DNA from: Amycolatopsis sp. EV170708-02-1
GTDB lineage: Bacteria > Actinomycetota > Actinomycetes > Mycobacteriales > Pseudonocardiaceae
NCBI RefSeq assembly: GCF_022479115.1
Contig: NZ_CP092497.1
Span: 3,038,001-3,102,000 of the forward strand
Length of the DNA stretch: 64,000 bases
Reading direction: 5' to 3'
In this document: positions 313 through 21,241 of the stretch, piece by piece
How the letters are laid out: each line of letters opens with the position of its first letter
Numbering within the stretch: position 1 is the first letter of the stretch
Notes under the pieces: generated by a model
Told to the model about the DNA's origin: nothing
The model's input: only the letters and a program-made list of their open reading frames with translations
Database searches by the model: none
Translations under genes and position numbers: made by a program

Positions 313-770
313 TAGGGCCGATCTGGGTTTGGGAAACCAAATCGCGACCACCTCAGGGCATTCCCGCCAACGGACGAAGTGTTGTCTCGGCGAGTAAGTC
401 GGCCGAGCGGCGAGTTTCAGCTTGAGCTGGTCGTCCAGCCGCTCGCAGCTTGCTCGTGATGGCAGCACCGGCAACTGCGTATAACAGTCGTCCGGTGCTG
501 GATCGACTCGATCATGCGAGGACGATCTTGCGAGGAAGCCGTTGGTTCACGAGTCTCAGTTGCAACCCTGCTCCGCAGCCTCGTCTAGTCTGCGGACAGC
601 CCATGCTTGCGTCCTACGCGATGAGTCTGGACCTGCGACTGCGATCGACGTCACATGCGGGCGAAGGGACGCCTCCGAACCGGCAATGCCTCGATGTGGA
701 TGACCCGTTGGAAGGACGCATCTGTCGTGTCGGGCGCGGAACCGTCAGTGGCCGTCTCTAGAGTAGCGGG
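313..770. other. Intergenic stretch, no convincing gene
   Basis: This 458-bp stretch separates the partial gene from the restriction-modification gene. It contains an open frame at 450-761 of 103 codons, but its composition is Ser/Arg/Cys-rich and looks like a chance reading. No tRNA or clear inverted repeat was seen. The last bases before 771 lack a strong Shine-Dalgarno, so translation of the next gene may be leaderless or weakly initiated. Confidence 0.5.
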
Positions 771-3149
771 GTGACCTTGACTGCTCCCACGCCGGCAATC
801 AACTACGGCGAGTTTTTCACTCGCCGCTGGGTGGTCGACGTTCTGCTCGATATCACCGGCTACACCGCCGATCGCGACCTTGGCTCGCTGCATCTGCTTG
901 AACCGTCGTGCGGGTCCGGGGCGTTTCTTGGTCCGGCGGTCGAACGCTTGATCTCCTCCGCGCGGGCCTATGGGCATGATCTTGCGTTGCTCGGCGACGC
1001 TGTCCGCGCGTACGACTTGCAGTCGAAGCACGTCAAGACCGCCCGCCAGGTCTGCCGCGACTTGCTTGTTGCCGCAGGTGCGCCTGAGGATACCGCAACC
1101 GCACTCGCGAAAACCTGGGTGCGTCGTCAGGACTTTCTTCTTCCCGGTGTCGACGACCTGCCCGCCGATGTAGCCATCGGTAACCCTCCGTACATCCGTT
1201 ACGACGACCTCGACGCCGGCACGGCGATCGAGTACCGCCGTACATGGAGAACCATGAAGGGCCGCGGAGACATATACGTGGGTTTCTACGAGCGATGCCT
1301 CGCAATGCTGAAACCCGGCGGCCGGGTCGGTTTCATCTGCGCCGACCGCTGGATGCGGAACCAGTACGGCGAGGATTTGCGGGATCTGGTGTCGTCCCGA
1401 TATGCGGTCGAGCACGTTTGGACCATGCACGATGTCGACGCGTTCGAATCCGAAGTCTCCGCTTACCCGGCGATCACGGTGCTAGCCAATCAACCGCAGG
1501 GCACGGCGGTCGTGGCGGACGCTACTGCCGCGTTCGGCGAAACCTCGGCTCAGGCATTGGCCAAGTGGTCTCGGGATGAATCGATGACGCACTTCACCGA
1601 CACTGGCGTTAGGGCACACCGCCTCCCGCATTGGTTCCCAGCTGGCGAGATGTGGCCCACGGGTTCGCCGGCTCGCCTCGCCCTGATCGAGCGGCTCAAC
1701 GACGGCTTCGCATCATTGCACGACGAGGCTACAGGTACTCGCGTCGCAATCGGTATCGCTACTGGTGCTGATAAGGCTTATGTAACCAAGGACGCTGGCG
1801 TGGCGGAGTCGGGGAGACTGTTGCCACTCTCGATGCGGCGAGACCTGATGTCGGGTTCGTTCGAGTGGCAGGGCAACTACTTGGTGAACCCATGGGACGC
1901 TGCCGGTAACCTCGTCGATCTTGCGGACTACCCGCGCCTTGCCGCCTACCTGGGCGCGCACCCGGCGATCAAAGATCGATTCGTCGCAAAGAAGAACCCT
2001 GATCGTTGGCATCGCACCATCGACAAAGTGAACACCTCGATCATCGACAAGCCGAAGCTGTTGCTGCAGGATATGAAGGCACGTATTCACCCGGTTCTGG
2101 AGCCCGGCGGCCACTATCCTCATCACAATCTCTATTACGTCGTCTCGGACATGTGGGACTTGGAAGTCCTCGGCGGGATCCTGCTGTCCCGGATCGCGCA
2201 AGCCTTCATCGAGGCATACTGTGTACGAATGCGCGGCGGAACCCTGCGGTTCCAGGCTCAGTATCTGAAGAAGATCCGTGTGCCGTCGCCAACTGCGATC
2301 CCCAGCGAACTCGCCGATGAGCTGCGCAGCGCTTTCCGGGCGCGCGACATCGAAGCTGCGACCACTGCTGCGGCACGAGTTTACGGAATCGACCTCTTGG
2401 AGTACGAGCTGACCGATACAGTGCCGACCATGTCTCGTGAAGATGTCGAACCACTCCTGGTCAACTGGTGGAAAGCGAAAAACGAGGCCGCCGCGAGGCT
2501 TCTCGCAGACGGCAAGTCGGACACTGGAGCGCAGGCGCGCGACGCGCGGCACATGCAGAGCATCTCGATGTTCGTAAGGCAGATGTTCGTGGACGCAGGG
2601 CTCGCCGAGTCGGACGTTACCGTGGACGGCATCGTTCCGGGTTACTACCGCCGCTCGAAGAACTGGGATGTGGTGGCGATGCACAAGGGCCATCTGGTGG
2701 GCCTTGTGGAGTTGAAGTCGCAAGCGTCGAGCTCGGGTAACAATGCGAACAACCGCATCGAAGAAGCGATTGGTAGCGCTGTCGACGCGAAGGCAGTACA
2801 GGAACTGACAGGAGCGTTCGGCAACCTCGGGGTCTGGACCGCGTGGTGTATGACATTTAACCGAGATGCGGAGAGTGGTCAACCCATTCGGTCGCGGAAG
2901 TCGAAAATCCGCATCCCCCTCGAGGACCCCGCGTTCAAGAGCATGACGTACGCTAGTCAGTACGCCATCGCGCTTGAACGGCTCATCTCGCAGAAGGTCT
3001 ATGACGCAGGATGGATGGTGCTCACATGGCTCAACGATGACGGCACCGTTGATTACGTCGAGCCGATCCCGACTGCAACAGCCGAAACCTTGGCTACCCA
3101 GATCGAGGCGCGGGTCAAGTTCGCGATTCAAGCGCTGCGTAACGAGTAG
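771..3149 (+). CDS. Fused restriction-modification protein: N6-adenine methyltransferase plus PaeR7I/XhoI-type nuclease
   Basis: The GTG start gives 792 residues. The N-terminal half is a class-I adenine methyltransferase: SAM-binding motif EPSCGSGAF at residues 44-52 and catalytic NPPY at 138-141, followed by a target-recognition-like middle region of the Eco57I/M.PaeR7I kind. The C-terminal third, from about residue 590, matches the XhoI/PaeR7I endonuclease fold. It has NWD (Asp633), then VELKSQ (Glu647, Lys649) as a PD-(D/E)XK site, then a GNN-NNR-EEAIGSAVD segment and a late segment with a YASQYAIALERL core, both conserved in that family. Known PaeR7I-type systems have separate M and R genes, so this is a natural fusion. 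By family inference it would recognise CTCGAG, but this is not shown by the sequence. Third-position GC is lower than in neighbours, suggesting transfer. No separate control gene is visible. Confidence 0.85.
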   Translation: MTLTAPTPAINYGEFFTRRWVVDVLLDITGYTADRDLGSLHLLEPSCGSGAFLGPAVERLISSARAYGHDLALLGDAVRAYDLQSKHVKTARQVCRDLLVAAGAPEDTATALAKTWVRRQDFLLPGVDDLPADVAIGNPPYIRYDDLDAGTAIEYRRTWRTMKGRGDIYVGFYERCLAMLKPGGRVGFICADRWMRNQYGEDLRDLVSSRYAVEHVWTMHDVDAFESEVSAYPAITVLANQPQGTAVVADATAAFGETSAQALAKWSRDESMTHFTDTGVRAHRLPHWFPAGEMWPTGSPARLALIERLNDGFASLHDEATGTRVAIGIATGADKAYVTKDAGVAESGRLLPLSMRRDLMSGSFEWQGNYLVNPWDAAGNLVDLADYPRLAAYLGAHPAIKDRFVAKKNPDRWHRTIDKVNTSIIDKPKLLLQDMKARIHPVLEPGGHYPHHNLYYVVSDMWDLEVLGGILLSRIAQAFIEAYCVRMRGGTLRFQAQYLKKIRVPSPTAIPSELADELRSAFRARDIEAATTAAARVYGIDLLEYELTDTVPTMSREDVEPLLVNWWKAKNEAAARLLADGKSDTGAQARDARHMQSISMFVRQMFVDAGLAESDVTVDGIVPGYYRRSKNWDVVAMHKGHLVGLVELKSQASSSGNNANNRIEEAIGSAVDAKAVQELTGAFGNLGVWTAWCMTFNRDAESGQPIRSRKSKIRIPLEDPAFKSMTYASQYAIALERLISQKVYDAGWMVLTWLNDDGTVDYVEPIPTATAETLATQIEARVKFAIQALRNE

Positions 3150-3494
3150 CCGAGTCAGCCGAACCGATGTCCGACCCTGCAGGTCGGTGACGCTGCTTCG
3201 GGTCGAATTCCGTGTCAGACGAGTTCACTGGCGCTGTTCCCGCACTGGAGAATTCGATCTCCAATGCGGGCACAGCGCCATGACTCGCGTAGCCTGAACA
3301 AGTTGAATGTGATTCTTGTCGGACACTGGAAGGTCGAAACCCGCTGTGTCGTGCGGCCCCTATCCACTTGACTGGCATCCAGGCCGTGGAGAGCGGCTTC
3401 CGTACCCGCCACTTGGGCGACGGGGCATGCAACCCGAGGTTATACAGCCGAGCTGCCATTCCAGCAACGAAAGTTGGTAGCCGGAAGGATCATG
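3150..3494. repeat. Gap with strong imperfect hairpin (3230-3279)
   Basis: This 345-bp gap follows the restriction gene. A small hairpin at 3171-3187 has 6-bp arms (CCGACC/GGTCGG). A larger one at 3230-3279 has 22-base arms with 20 pairs and two mismatches around a 6-base loop, outer arm GGCGCTGT/ACAGCGCC. No T-run follows on either strand, so it is not a textbook intrinsic terminator. It could be a terminator acting without a U-tract, a mobile repeat, or a recombination site. The remainder up to the tRNA shows nothing coding. Confidence 0.55.
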
Positions 3495-3567
3495 TGCCCC
3501 CGGCAGGATTCGAACCTGCGACACCCGCTTTAGGAGAGCGGTGCTCTATCCCCTGAGCTACGAGGGC
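3495..3567 (-). tRNA. tRNA-Arg (anticodon CCT)
   Basis: The 73-nt minus-strand sequence folds as a complete cloverleaf: 7-bp acceptor stem with one G-U pair, D stem GCTC/GAGC, anticodon stem CCGCT/AGCGG with loop CTCCTAA (anticodon CCT, reading AGG), T stem GCAGG/CCTGC with TTCGAAT loop, discriminator A. CCA is not encoded. Its 3' end faces the lower-GC restriction block, the usual geometry for an integrative element that used the tRNA 3' end as attachment site. No second copy of the tRNA 3' end occurs in the window. Confidence 0.95.
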
Positions 3568-3923: not shown

Positions 3924-4577
3924 TTGATCAAGCTCATGTTCGCCGACGACGAGGAACTGGTCCGTTCGGGCCTGCGTGCCATGATGTCGGGCGCTGCCGA
4001 TATCGAGATCGTGGGCGAGGCGAGCGACGGGAGATCAGCGGTCGAGGTCGCCCGGAGGTACCACCCCGACGTCGCGTTGCTCGACATCAAGATGCGCGCG
4101 CCTGACGACGGCATTCGCGCGCTGAGGGCCATCCTCGCGCTGCCGGATCCGCCGACGGTGGCGATGTTGACCACGTTCGACATCGACGACTACGTCAGTC
4201 TCGCGCTCAGGCTCGGGGCCAACGGCTTCCTGCTGAAGGACATCGACCCGGCGGCGCTGCTCAGGGCGGTGCGCGACCTGGCCCGCGGTGGCGCGGTGCT
4301 CGACCCCGGGGTCGCGGCGCGCATGGTGCAGTCGCATCGGGACGAGCAGCGGGCCGCGCAGCCGGCGCGCAAGCTGCTCGCGTCGTTGTCCGAGCGGGAG
4401 CGCGAGGTCGTCGGGCTGATCGGGCAGGGGCTGTCCAACGCCGAGATCGGCGGGCGCCTGCACCTGTCCGAGGCCACGGTCAAGGGGTACGTCTCGGCCG
4501 TCCTGTCCAAGATCGGCGCGGCGAACCGGGTGCAGGCCGCGCTGCTGGCCTACCGCGGTGGCCTGCTCGACCAGTAA
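3924..4577 (+). CDS. NarL/FixJ-family response regulator (orphan)
   Basis: A cytoplasmic two-component regulator of 217 residues, a normal length for the family. The N-terminal receiver domain (residues 1-120) has the acidic pair Asp8/Asp9, phospho-acceptor Asp54 (ALLDIKM) and Lys in FLLKD. The C-terminal LuxR-type helix-turn-helix (about 150-212) contains LSEREREVVGLIGQGLSNAE. Translation starts at TTG 3924 with GGAGGG upstream. No histidine kinase is adjacent, so its partner is unknown. The next gene overlaps its TAA by one base (TAATG), suggesting co-translation with the TRIC-family membrane protein. Confidence 0.88.
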   Translation: MIKLMFADDEELVRSGLRAMMSGAADIEIVGEASDGRSAVEVARRYHPDVALLDIKMRAPDDGIRALRAILALPDPPTVAMLTTFDIDDYVSLALRLGANGFLLKDIDPAALLRAVRDLARGGAVLDPGVAARMVQSHRDEQRAAQPARKLLASLSEREREVVGLIGQGLSNAEIGGRLHLSEATVKGYVSAVLSKIGAANRVQAALLAYRGGLLDQ

Positions 4578-19901: not shown

Positions 19902-21241
19902 ATGTCCACTGTCACCGCCCCTTCCCGTACCGGTCGCCGGGCCGATCTGATCGCCGTGGGGCTGGCGATGCTCCTGGTCGCCGCCGCGATCGCCGTCGGT
20001 CTCCACTACAACCGGCCCGGCTCCGGCGTGGTGATCTACGCCTTCGCGCCACCGCTGTTCGGCTTGTGGCTGCCTCACGTGGGGCCGGGTTCGGTCGCCG
20101 CCGTGGTGCTCGCGCTCCTGGTCGTCAGCAAAGGTCCCTCGCTCGCCGCGCGGCTGCGGTGGCGCCCGCTGCTCGCGCTCGGCTACGTGACCGCGCTGGC
20201 GTGGACGTTCTCGCTGGCGATGATCGACGGCTGGGCGCGCGGTTTCACCGGCAGGCTCACCACGGAACACGAGTACCTGCACGAGGTCCCCGGCATCACC
20301 GACATCCCGGAGATGCTGGCCGGATTCTCCTCGCGCATCCTGGACTTCCAGCCGGACTCGTGGACGACGCACGTCTCCGGGCATCCGCCGGGCGCGACGC
20401 TCGTCTTCGTCTGGCTCGACAGGCTCGGCCTGCAGGGCGGCGCGTGGGCGTCGGCGGTCGTCGTGCTCGTCGGTTGCCTGGCCGTGGTCGCGGTGCCGGT
20501 GACGCTCGCCGCGCTGGGCAGGGAGGACGCCGCGAGGACGGTCCTGCCGTTCGCCGTCCTGACCCGGGCGCGATCTGGATCGGGGTGTCCGCGGACGGGC
20601 TCTTCGCGGGTGTCACGGCGACCGGGATCGCGCTGCTGGCGCTCGCCGTGCGGCGGCGGGCCCTCGCGCTCCCCGGCGGTCTGCTGCTCGGGTTCGGGCT
20701 CTTCCTTTCGTACGGTCTCGTGTTGCTGGCCGTGCTCGTGCTTGCCGTCGTCGTGCTGACCCGCGAGTGGCGGATCCTGCTCCTCGCCACGGCGGGCGTG
20801 GCCGTGGTCGTCGTGGCGTTCGCGCTGACGGGCTTCTGGTGGCTCGACGGCTATCACCTGGTGGTCGAGCGCTACTACCAGGGGATCGCGACGCTGCGCC
20901 CGTACTCCTACTGGGTGTGGGCGGATATCGCGGCGGTGCTCATCGCGATCGGGCCCGCCGTGATCGCCGGGACGCGACGGGCGGGCGCGGATTTCCTCGC
21001 CGAGCCGAAACGGTCGTTCCGCGAGCCGGTCACGCTGATCGTGCTGGCCGCGGCGCTGACGATCGCTTTCGCCGACCTGTCCGGCCTGTCGAAGGCGGAG
21101 GTCGAACGCATCTGGCTACCGTTCGAGGTGTGGCTGCTGCCCGCGGTGGTGTTGCTGCCGTCGAAGGGGCGGCGGTGGTGGCTCGCCGCGTCGGCGGCCA
21201 CGGCGCTGGTGGTGAACCACCTGGTGCTGACGAGTTGGTGA
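19902..21241 (+). pseudogene. Polytopic GT-C-like membrane protein, interrupted by a 1-nt frameshift
   Basis: From ATG 19902 a very hydrophobic protein is read with LTTEHEYLHEVPGITDI near residue 113-129 and a SGHPPGATLVFVWLD segment, resembling lipid-linked sugar transferases of the GT-C fold. Near 20561-20568 the frame is lost: one C seems missing in GACCCGGGCG, and homology continues in the next frame from PGAIWIGVSADG to TGA 21241. Restored length would be about 446 residues with roughly ten helices. It is followed by a two-component system and may be its main target or partner. The glycosyl role is tentative. Confidence 0.68.

Follow-up and report, generated by a model that had tools for sequence, protein, structure and literature searches.

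The stretch of DNA analyzed here (64,000 nt; the window) contained, at positions 771 to 3149 on the plus strand, a putative Type II restriction-modification locus of the PaeR7I/XhoI type, in the genome of a Pseudonocardiaceae actinomycete. It is very probably a small cassette at the 3′ end of a tRNA-Arg gene, of a kind whose modification (M) and restriction (R) genes are split in relatives and are joined in this assembly by a single missing base, with either one protein chain or two as the product. As judged by homology, the system itself is an ordinary XhoI/PaeR7I-type restriction-modification system.

From a GTG start, positions 771 to 3149 formed one ORF of 792 amino acids with no internal stop, and the single frame carrying both domains that the earlier note had described was thus present in the assembly. 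The following parts were assigned within this frame:

771..2429, plus strand: N6-adenine DNA methyltransferase part of the Eco57I/BseCI/M.PaeR7I type with a C-terminal target-recognition region, residues 1 to 553 (Pfam, PADLOC, PDB, and fold matches).
900..926, plus strand: EPSCGSGAF, residues 44 to 52 (found in the translation).
1182..1193, plus strand: NPPY, residues 138 to 141 (found in the translation).
2010..2276, plus strand: TaqI_C-like specificity region, residues 414 to 502 (weak match to PF12950, 19.8 bits, below the cutoff of 26.5).
2426..2440, plus strand: junction of the M and R parts, with one base fewer at about 2426 than in three split relatives.
2430..3149, plus strand: XhoI/PaeR7I-type restriction endonuclease part, residues 554 to 792.
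2667..2717, plus strand: PD-(D/E)xK-like catalytic residues D633, E647, and K649 (alignment of R domains).
2736..2780, plus strand: GNNANNRIEEAIGSA block, residues 656 to 670 (several residues invariant across 18 aligned R domains).

The earlier note had read the two halves as an adenine methylase and a PaeR7I/XhoI-type nuclease, and homology in Pfam and PADLOC far above chance bore this out. Profile searches matched the C-terminal part (residues 580 to 752) to the XhoI family PF04555 (85.5 bits versus a cutoff of 25, E = 5.7e-24) and residues 133 to 225 to the Eco57I family PF07669 (E = 6.7e-19); PF02384 was also matched in the methyltransferase part. PADLOC models for MTase_II (residues 10 to 546, E = 8.7e-191) and REase_II (residues 565 to 779, E = 2.1e-25) covered most of the chain. 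Residues 124 to 234 matched the PDB sequence of M.BseCI (E = 4.8e-18), and the predicted fold of the methyltransferase half matched those of CamA and M.BseCI. All of the motifs named in the earlier note, EPSCGSGAF, NPPY, D633, E647, K649, and the residue 656 to 670 block, lay where it had placed them. In this frame we take EPSCGSGAF to be the AdoMet-binding motif and NPPY to be the catalytic motif of an amino-methyltransferase. The three putative nuclease residues were intact, and all 18 aligned R domains, that of the plasmid-borne paeR7IR among them, had the same residues. Both halves were under purifying selection (window versus the closest split relative, genome G534; dN/dS of 0.098 for the M half and 0.060 for the R half).

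The bases at the junction accounted for the single frame. In G534 and at a second split locus (L057), the start codon of R lies 8 nt before the stop codon of M, producing an 11-nt overlap read in different frames; in a third genome (G525), this position holds one of several possible R starts. Both signals were retained in the window, with the R start ATG at 2430 to 2432 and the former M stop, a TGA now out of frame, at 2438 to 2440, at a spacing that gives the same 11-nt overlap. The absence of one base at 2426, shortly before the R start, put R in the frame of M and so produced the 792-residue one-chain reading. Judged from these retained signals, the window junction either changed very recently or is erroneous.

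Three draws of genomes, each including the window genome, were searched for genes with an XhoI domain. At phylum level 24 of 396 genomes had such a gene, at order level 16 of 397, and at class level 8 of 394; across the three draws, only the window genome had the domain in a frame longer than 400 amino acids. Within the family, 24 of 390 genomes matched the full protein. Classification of 91 loci gave 6 that were fused, 71 with both domains in different frames, 7 with R only, 5 with M only, and 2 with neither. The 77 two-domain loci represented 61 distinct places, 58 of them split and 3 fused, the latter being the window, locus L030 of genome G639, and locus L031 of Lentzea pudingi (the same locus as L058). 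Among plasmids, 254 records matched, including 32 in which the match spanned 80% or more of the query, and the best 20 of the 254 matches each carried annotations for a methylase gene and for a restriction endonuclease gene. The earlier note's statement that R and M are normally separate genes in PaeR7I/XhoI systems was therefore upheld, by the 58 split places and by the plasmid paeR7IM/paeR7IR record, which has two genes.

The split pair of G534 (L028/L116) was the closest relative (M 88% and R 86% identical) and lies beside the same tRNA-Arg, but it consists of two genes overlapping by 11 nt and followed by a tandem second XhoI-type R gene, whereas the window genome had one XhoI-domain match only and one base fewer than the G534 pair at the junction. 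Further XhoI-type R genes, sharing about 30% identity with the first and arranged in tandem with it or a short distance away, were observed in G534 (L116, 11241 to 12272) and at L008/L025, L044, and L077/L083; some PaeR7I-type loci are thus predicted to carry two nucleases. The R parts of the clade formed by the window, G534, G525, and L057 were about 30% identical to those of loci whose M parts were 66 to 72% identical (alignment A2); R appears either to diverge far faster than M or to have been swapped.

The fused Lentzea loci resembled the window in having M and R in that order in a single frame, with M about 66% identical, but their R parts were only 29 to 33% identical to that of the window, their linkers were longer, and they fell in another part of the tree. 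The frames were 804 (L030) and 815 (L031/L058) amino acids long, and these two loci were 66% identical to each other in M and 56% in R. A clade of all three fused rows was rejected (AU test, P = 9e-7, quick tree); L030 and L031 represent one or two events. Both keep a TGA in a shifted frame at the presumed old R start, where the codon is TTG in L031 and CTG in L030. Over 113,377 bases, the L. pudingi genome had 11 private 1-nt deletions and 18 private 1-nt insertions, and both of its two coding shifts were insertions; because this genome lacks a one-sided deletion signature, its fusion is probably real. The corresponding comparison for G639 (L030) found one coding 1-nt deletion in 15,911 bases, a sample too small to judge. 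Taken together, natural PaeR7I-type fusions probably exist and are probably real in at least one genome other than that of the window. A second PaeR7I-type M gene was observed on the other strand after both fused Lentzea loci (L030/L051; L058, 10276 to 12203), and that of L. pudingi reads in two frames.

The reliability of single bases in the window genome (G000) was examined over 255,405 bases compared with two genus mates, G499 and G505 (93 to 96% identical near the window). G000 had 26 private non-triplet indels; all were deletions, 24 of 1 nt and two of 10 nt, and 1-nt insertions were absent. Seven of these indels shifted a strongly coding frame. Among the 19 such indels of G499 were 10 deletions and 8 insertions of a single nucleotide, and among the 44 of G505 there were 24 and 16, respectively; no coding shift was present in either genome. 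The 1-nt deletions of G000 were thus not more numerous than those of G505 (24 each), but they were one-sided and frame breaking. With a looser threshold, there were 12 coding shifts in G000, 9 of them 1-nt deletions, versus 0 in both G499 and G505. One-sided, gene-breaking deletions mark sequencing error, and the G000 assembly likely carries 1-nt deletion errors. Single-base deletions were also observed at window positions 20563, 34348, and 17306 (the last seen versus G499 only), in stretches that are read through in relatives; these are probable assembly errors.

Two accounts of the junction were weighed, and they appear about equally probable. The organism may have the usual two overlapping genes, with a sequencing deletion at the junction having merged their frames in the assembly. 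The one-sided private indels of G000, with their seven coding shifts versus none in G499 or G505, are consistent with such an artifact, as is the retention of both the R start and the M stop at the exact overlap of the split relatives. The target for a fusing deletion is small, however, at about 29 nt in G534 and L057 (143 in G525), and the chance of an error falling within 29 nt is correspondingly low (29 × 24/255,405 = 0.003 with all 24 deletions counted as errors, or 0.0008 with only the 7 coding shifts so counted). G505 also had 24 private 1-nt deletions, so that some of those in G000 may be real. The crude chance of a real fusion on the end branch of the window (0.074) was about 0.004 to 0.009, calculated from an M tree of 28 rows with a total length of 16.7 and one or two events in the two fused Lentzea rows; this value is an overestimate, many split loci being absent from that tree.

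Equally, a real 1-nt deletion may have given rise to a working one-chain modification-restriction enzyme, a genuine but young fusion. The frame is free of stops with all motifs intact, PaeR7I-type fused frames also occur in two Lentzea genomes (L030 and L031/L058), the fused frame of L. pudingi is no expected error given the lack of a deletion signature in that genome, a single clade of the three fused rows was rejected, and L030 has CTG at the presumed old R start. The deletion-error signature in the window's own genome, the split state of 58 of 61 places, and the position of the three fused rows singly on the tree, with no older fused clade found in the 28-row M tree, argue against it. The balance was put at about even from the two crude chances, the split loci missing from the tree, and the intact former start and stop signals, which indicate either a very recent event or a mistake in the sequence. 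The one-chain enzyme of the earlier note accordingly stood in part; its frame is continuous in the assembly, but the claim depends on one base, the nearest relatives are split, and private 1-nt deletions shift frames elsewhere in the genome.

A third account, a Type IIG/IIC-like enzyme whose methylation and cleavage both depend on a single target-recognition region, is very improbable. In its favor, R and M would share one chain, and Type IIG models of PADLOC had matches in the methyltransferase part, the best with E = 1.3e-18. In the 25 PADLOC rows listed out of 49, however, the Type IIG matches fell in the methyltransferase half, and the C-terminal XhoI nuclease is a stand-alone protein in relatives and presumably recognizes its own site. 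In BpuSI and DrdV, the nuclease sits at the N terminus, before the methyltransferase; for BpuSI, the chain range of this domain in the match was 6 to 170, whereas the nuclease domain of the window lies at residues 580 to 752.

The surroundings of the locus were consistent with an acquired cassette. The GC content was 60.9% for the gene versus 69.1% for the window, and two features delimited the site:

721..3150, plus strand: restriction-modification cassette, 84% identical at the DNA level to the locus at the same site in G534; in the sequences fetched for this side of the tRNA, the two share nothing else.
3494..3567, minus strand: tRNA-Arg(CCT); alignments with genus mates start at its 3′ end (3494) or no more than a few bases away.

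The foreign stretch is on the far side of the 3′ end of the tRNA-Arg, where G499 and G503 (8.7 and 9.1 kb fetched) shared nothing with the 19.5 kb of locus L115 apart from the tRNA bases. The cassette, as placed by these alignments, is in a variable stretch that also holds putative Wadjet genes. JetA2, JetB2, and JetC2 of Wadjet type II were observed at 4285 to 11008 of L115, about 5.0 to 11.7 kb upstream of the window start; JetD was not found among the seven ORFs scanned there.

The specificity CTCGAG, assigned from family membership, is plausible, although the enzyme may differ from PaeR7I in this respect, M and R being 41% and 31% identical to paeR7IM and paeR7IR. The sequence occurs in the window, as the earlier note had said; 14 sites were counted, including 4592 and 8398 and one inside the gene at 2919. 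The genome contained 2,327 copies, so protection of the host would be needed. The ratio to the reversed hexamer (3,808 copies) was 0.61, the lowest of 10 genomes, with values of 0.66 in a genus mate without the system and 0.78, 0.87, and 1.35 in three genomes with it; clear avoidance of CTCGAG was not seen in the site counts of these 10 genomes.

We infer that the cassette was acquired into the variable stretch at the tRNA-Arg 3′ end. M would methylate adenine in a palindrome, probably CTCGAG, and R would cleave unmethylated copies of that palindrome. If the product is one chain, R would lose its separate synthesis from its own overlapping start and would be tied 1:1 to M, and the retained internal ATG might still yield some free R. 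Type IIP restriction enzymes act as homodimers, and in a one-chain product this requirement, if shared by R, could supply a delay before cutting. A broader idea, which we regard as rather unlikely, is that frameshifts where the two genes overlap repeatedly turn PaeR7I-type systems into true one-chain M-R enzymes, both in the window and in Lentzea, and that such enzymes could time themselves: monomeric M would be active from the start, and tethered R, needing two paired chains, would cut only after protein and methylation had built up. If the fusions are real, they would show that a Type IIP system known from textbooks as two genes also occurs naturally as one chain, in which the nuclease presumably keeps its own site recognition, and the restraint of restriction on entry into a naive cell could be tested by comparing fused enzymes with split relatives. 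If the window fusion is an artifact, it would be a warning that an error-prone assembly can make overlapping restriction-modification genes look like a fused enzyme.

Among known systems, a BREX PglX methyltransferase was considered and rejected (best BREX model, 29.6 bits versus the NCBIfam PglX cutoff of 400). The solved adenine methyltransferases M.BseCI and CamA resemble the methyltransferase half only, in sequence or predicted fold, and do not cover the nuclease half. The window shares with the PaeR7I/XhoI Type IIP system an XhoI domain, a catalytic D...E-x-K, and an M.PaeR7I-related adenine-N6 methyltransferase partner. In the paeR7IM/paeR7IR pair of plasmid pRSB105 (DQ839391), M precedes R on one strand, as in the window; the two are homologous over most of their length (M compared over residues 13 to 540), and the nucleases have the same catalytic residues. 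The plasmid pair consists of two genes with R starting right after the M stop, whereas the window, if its junction is real, has one frame.
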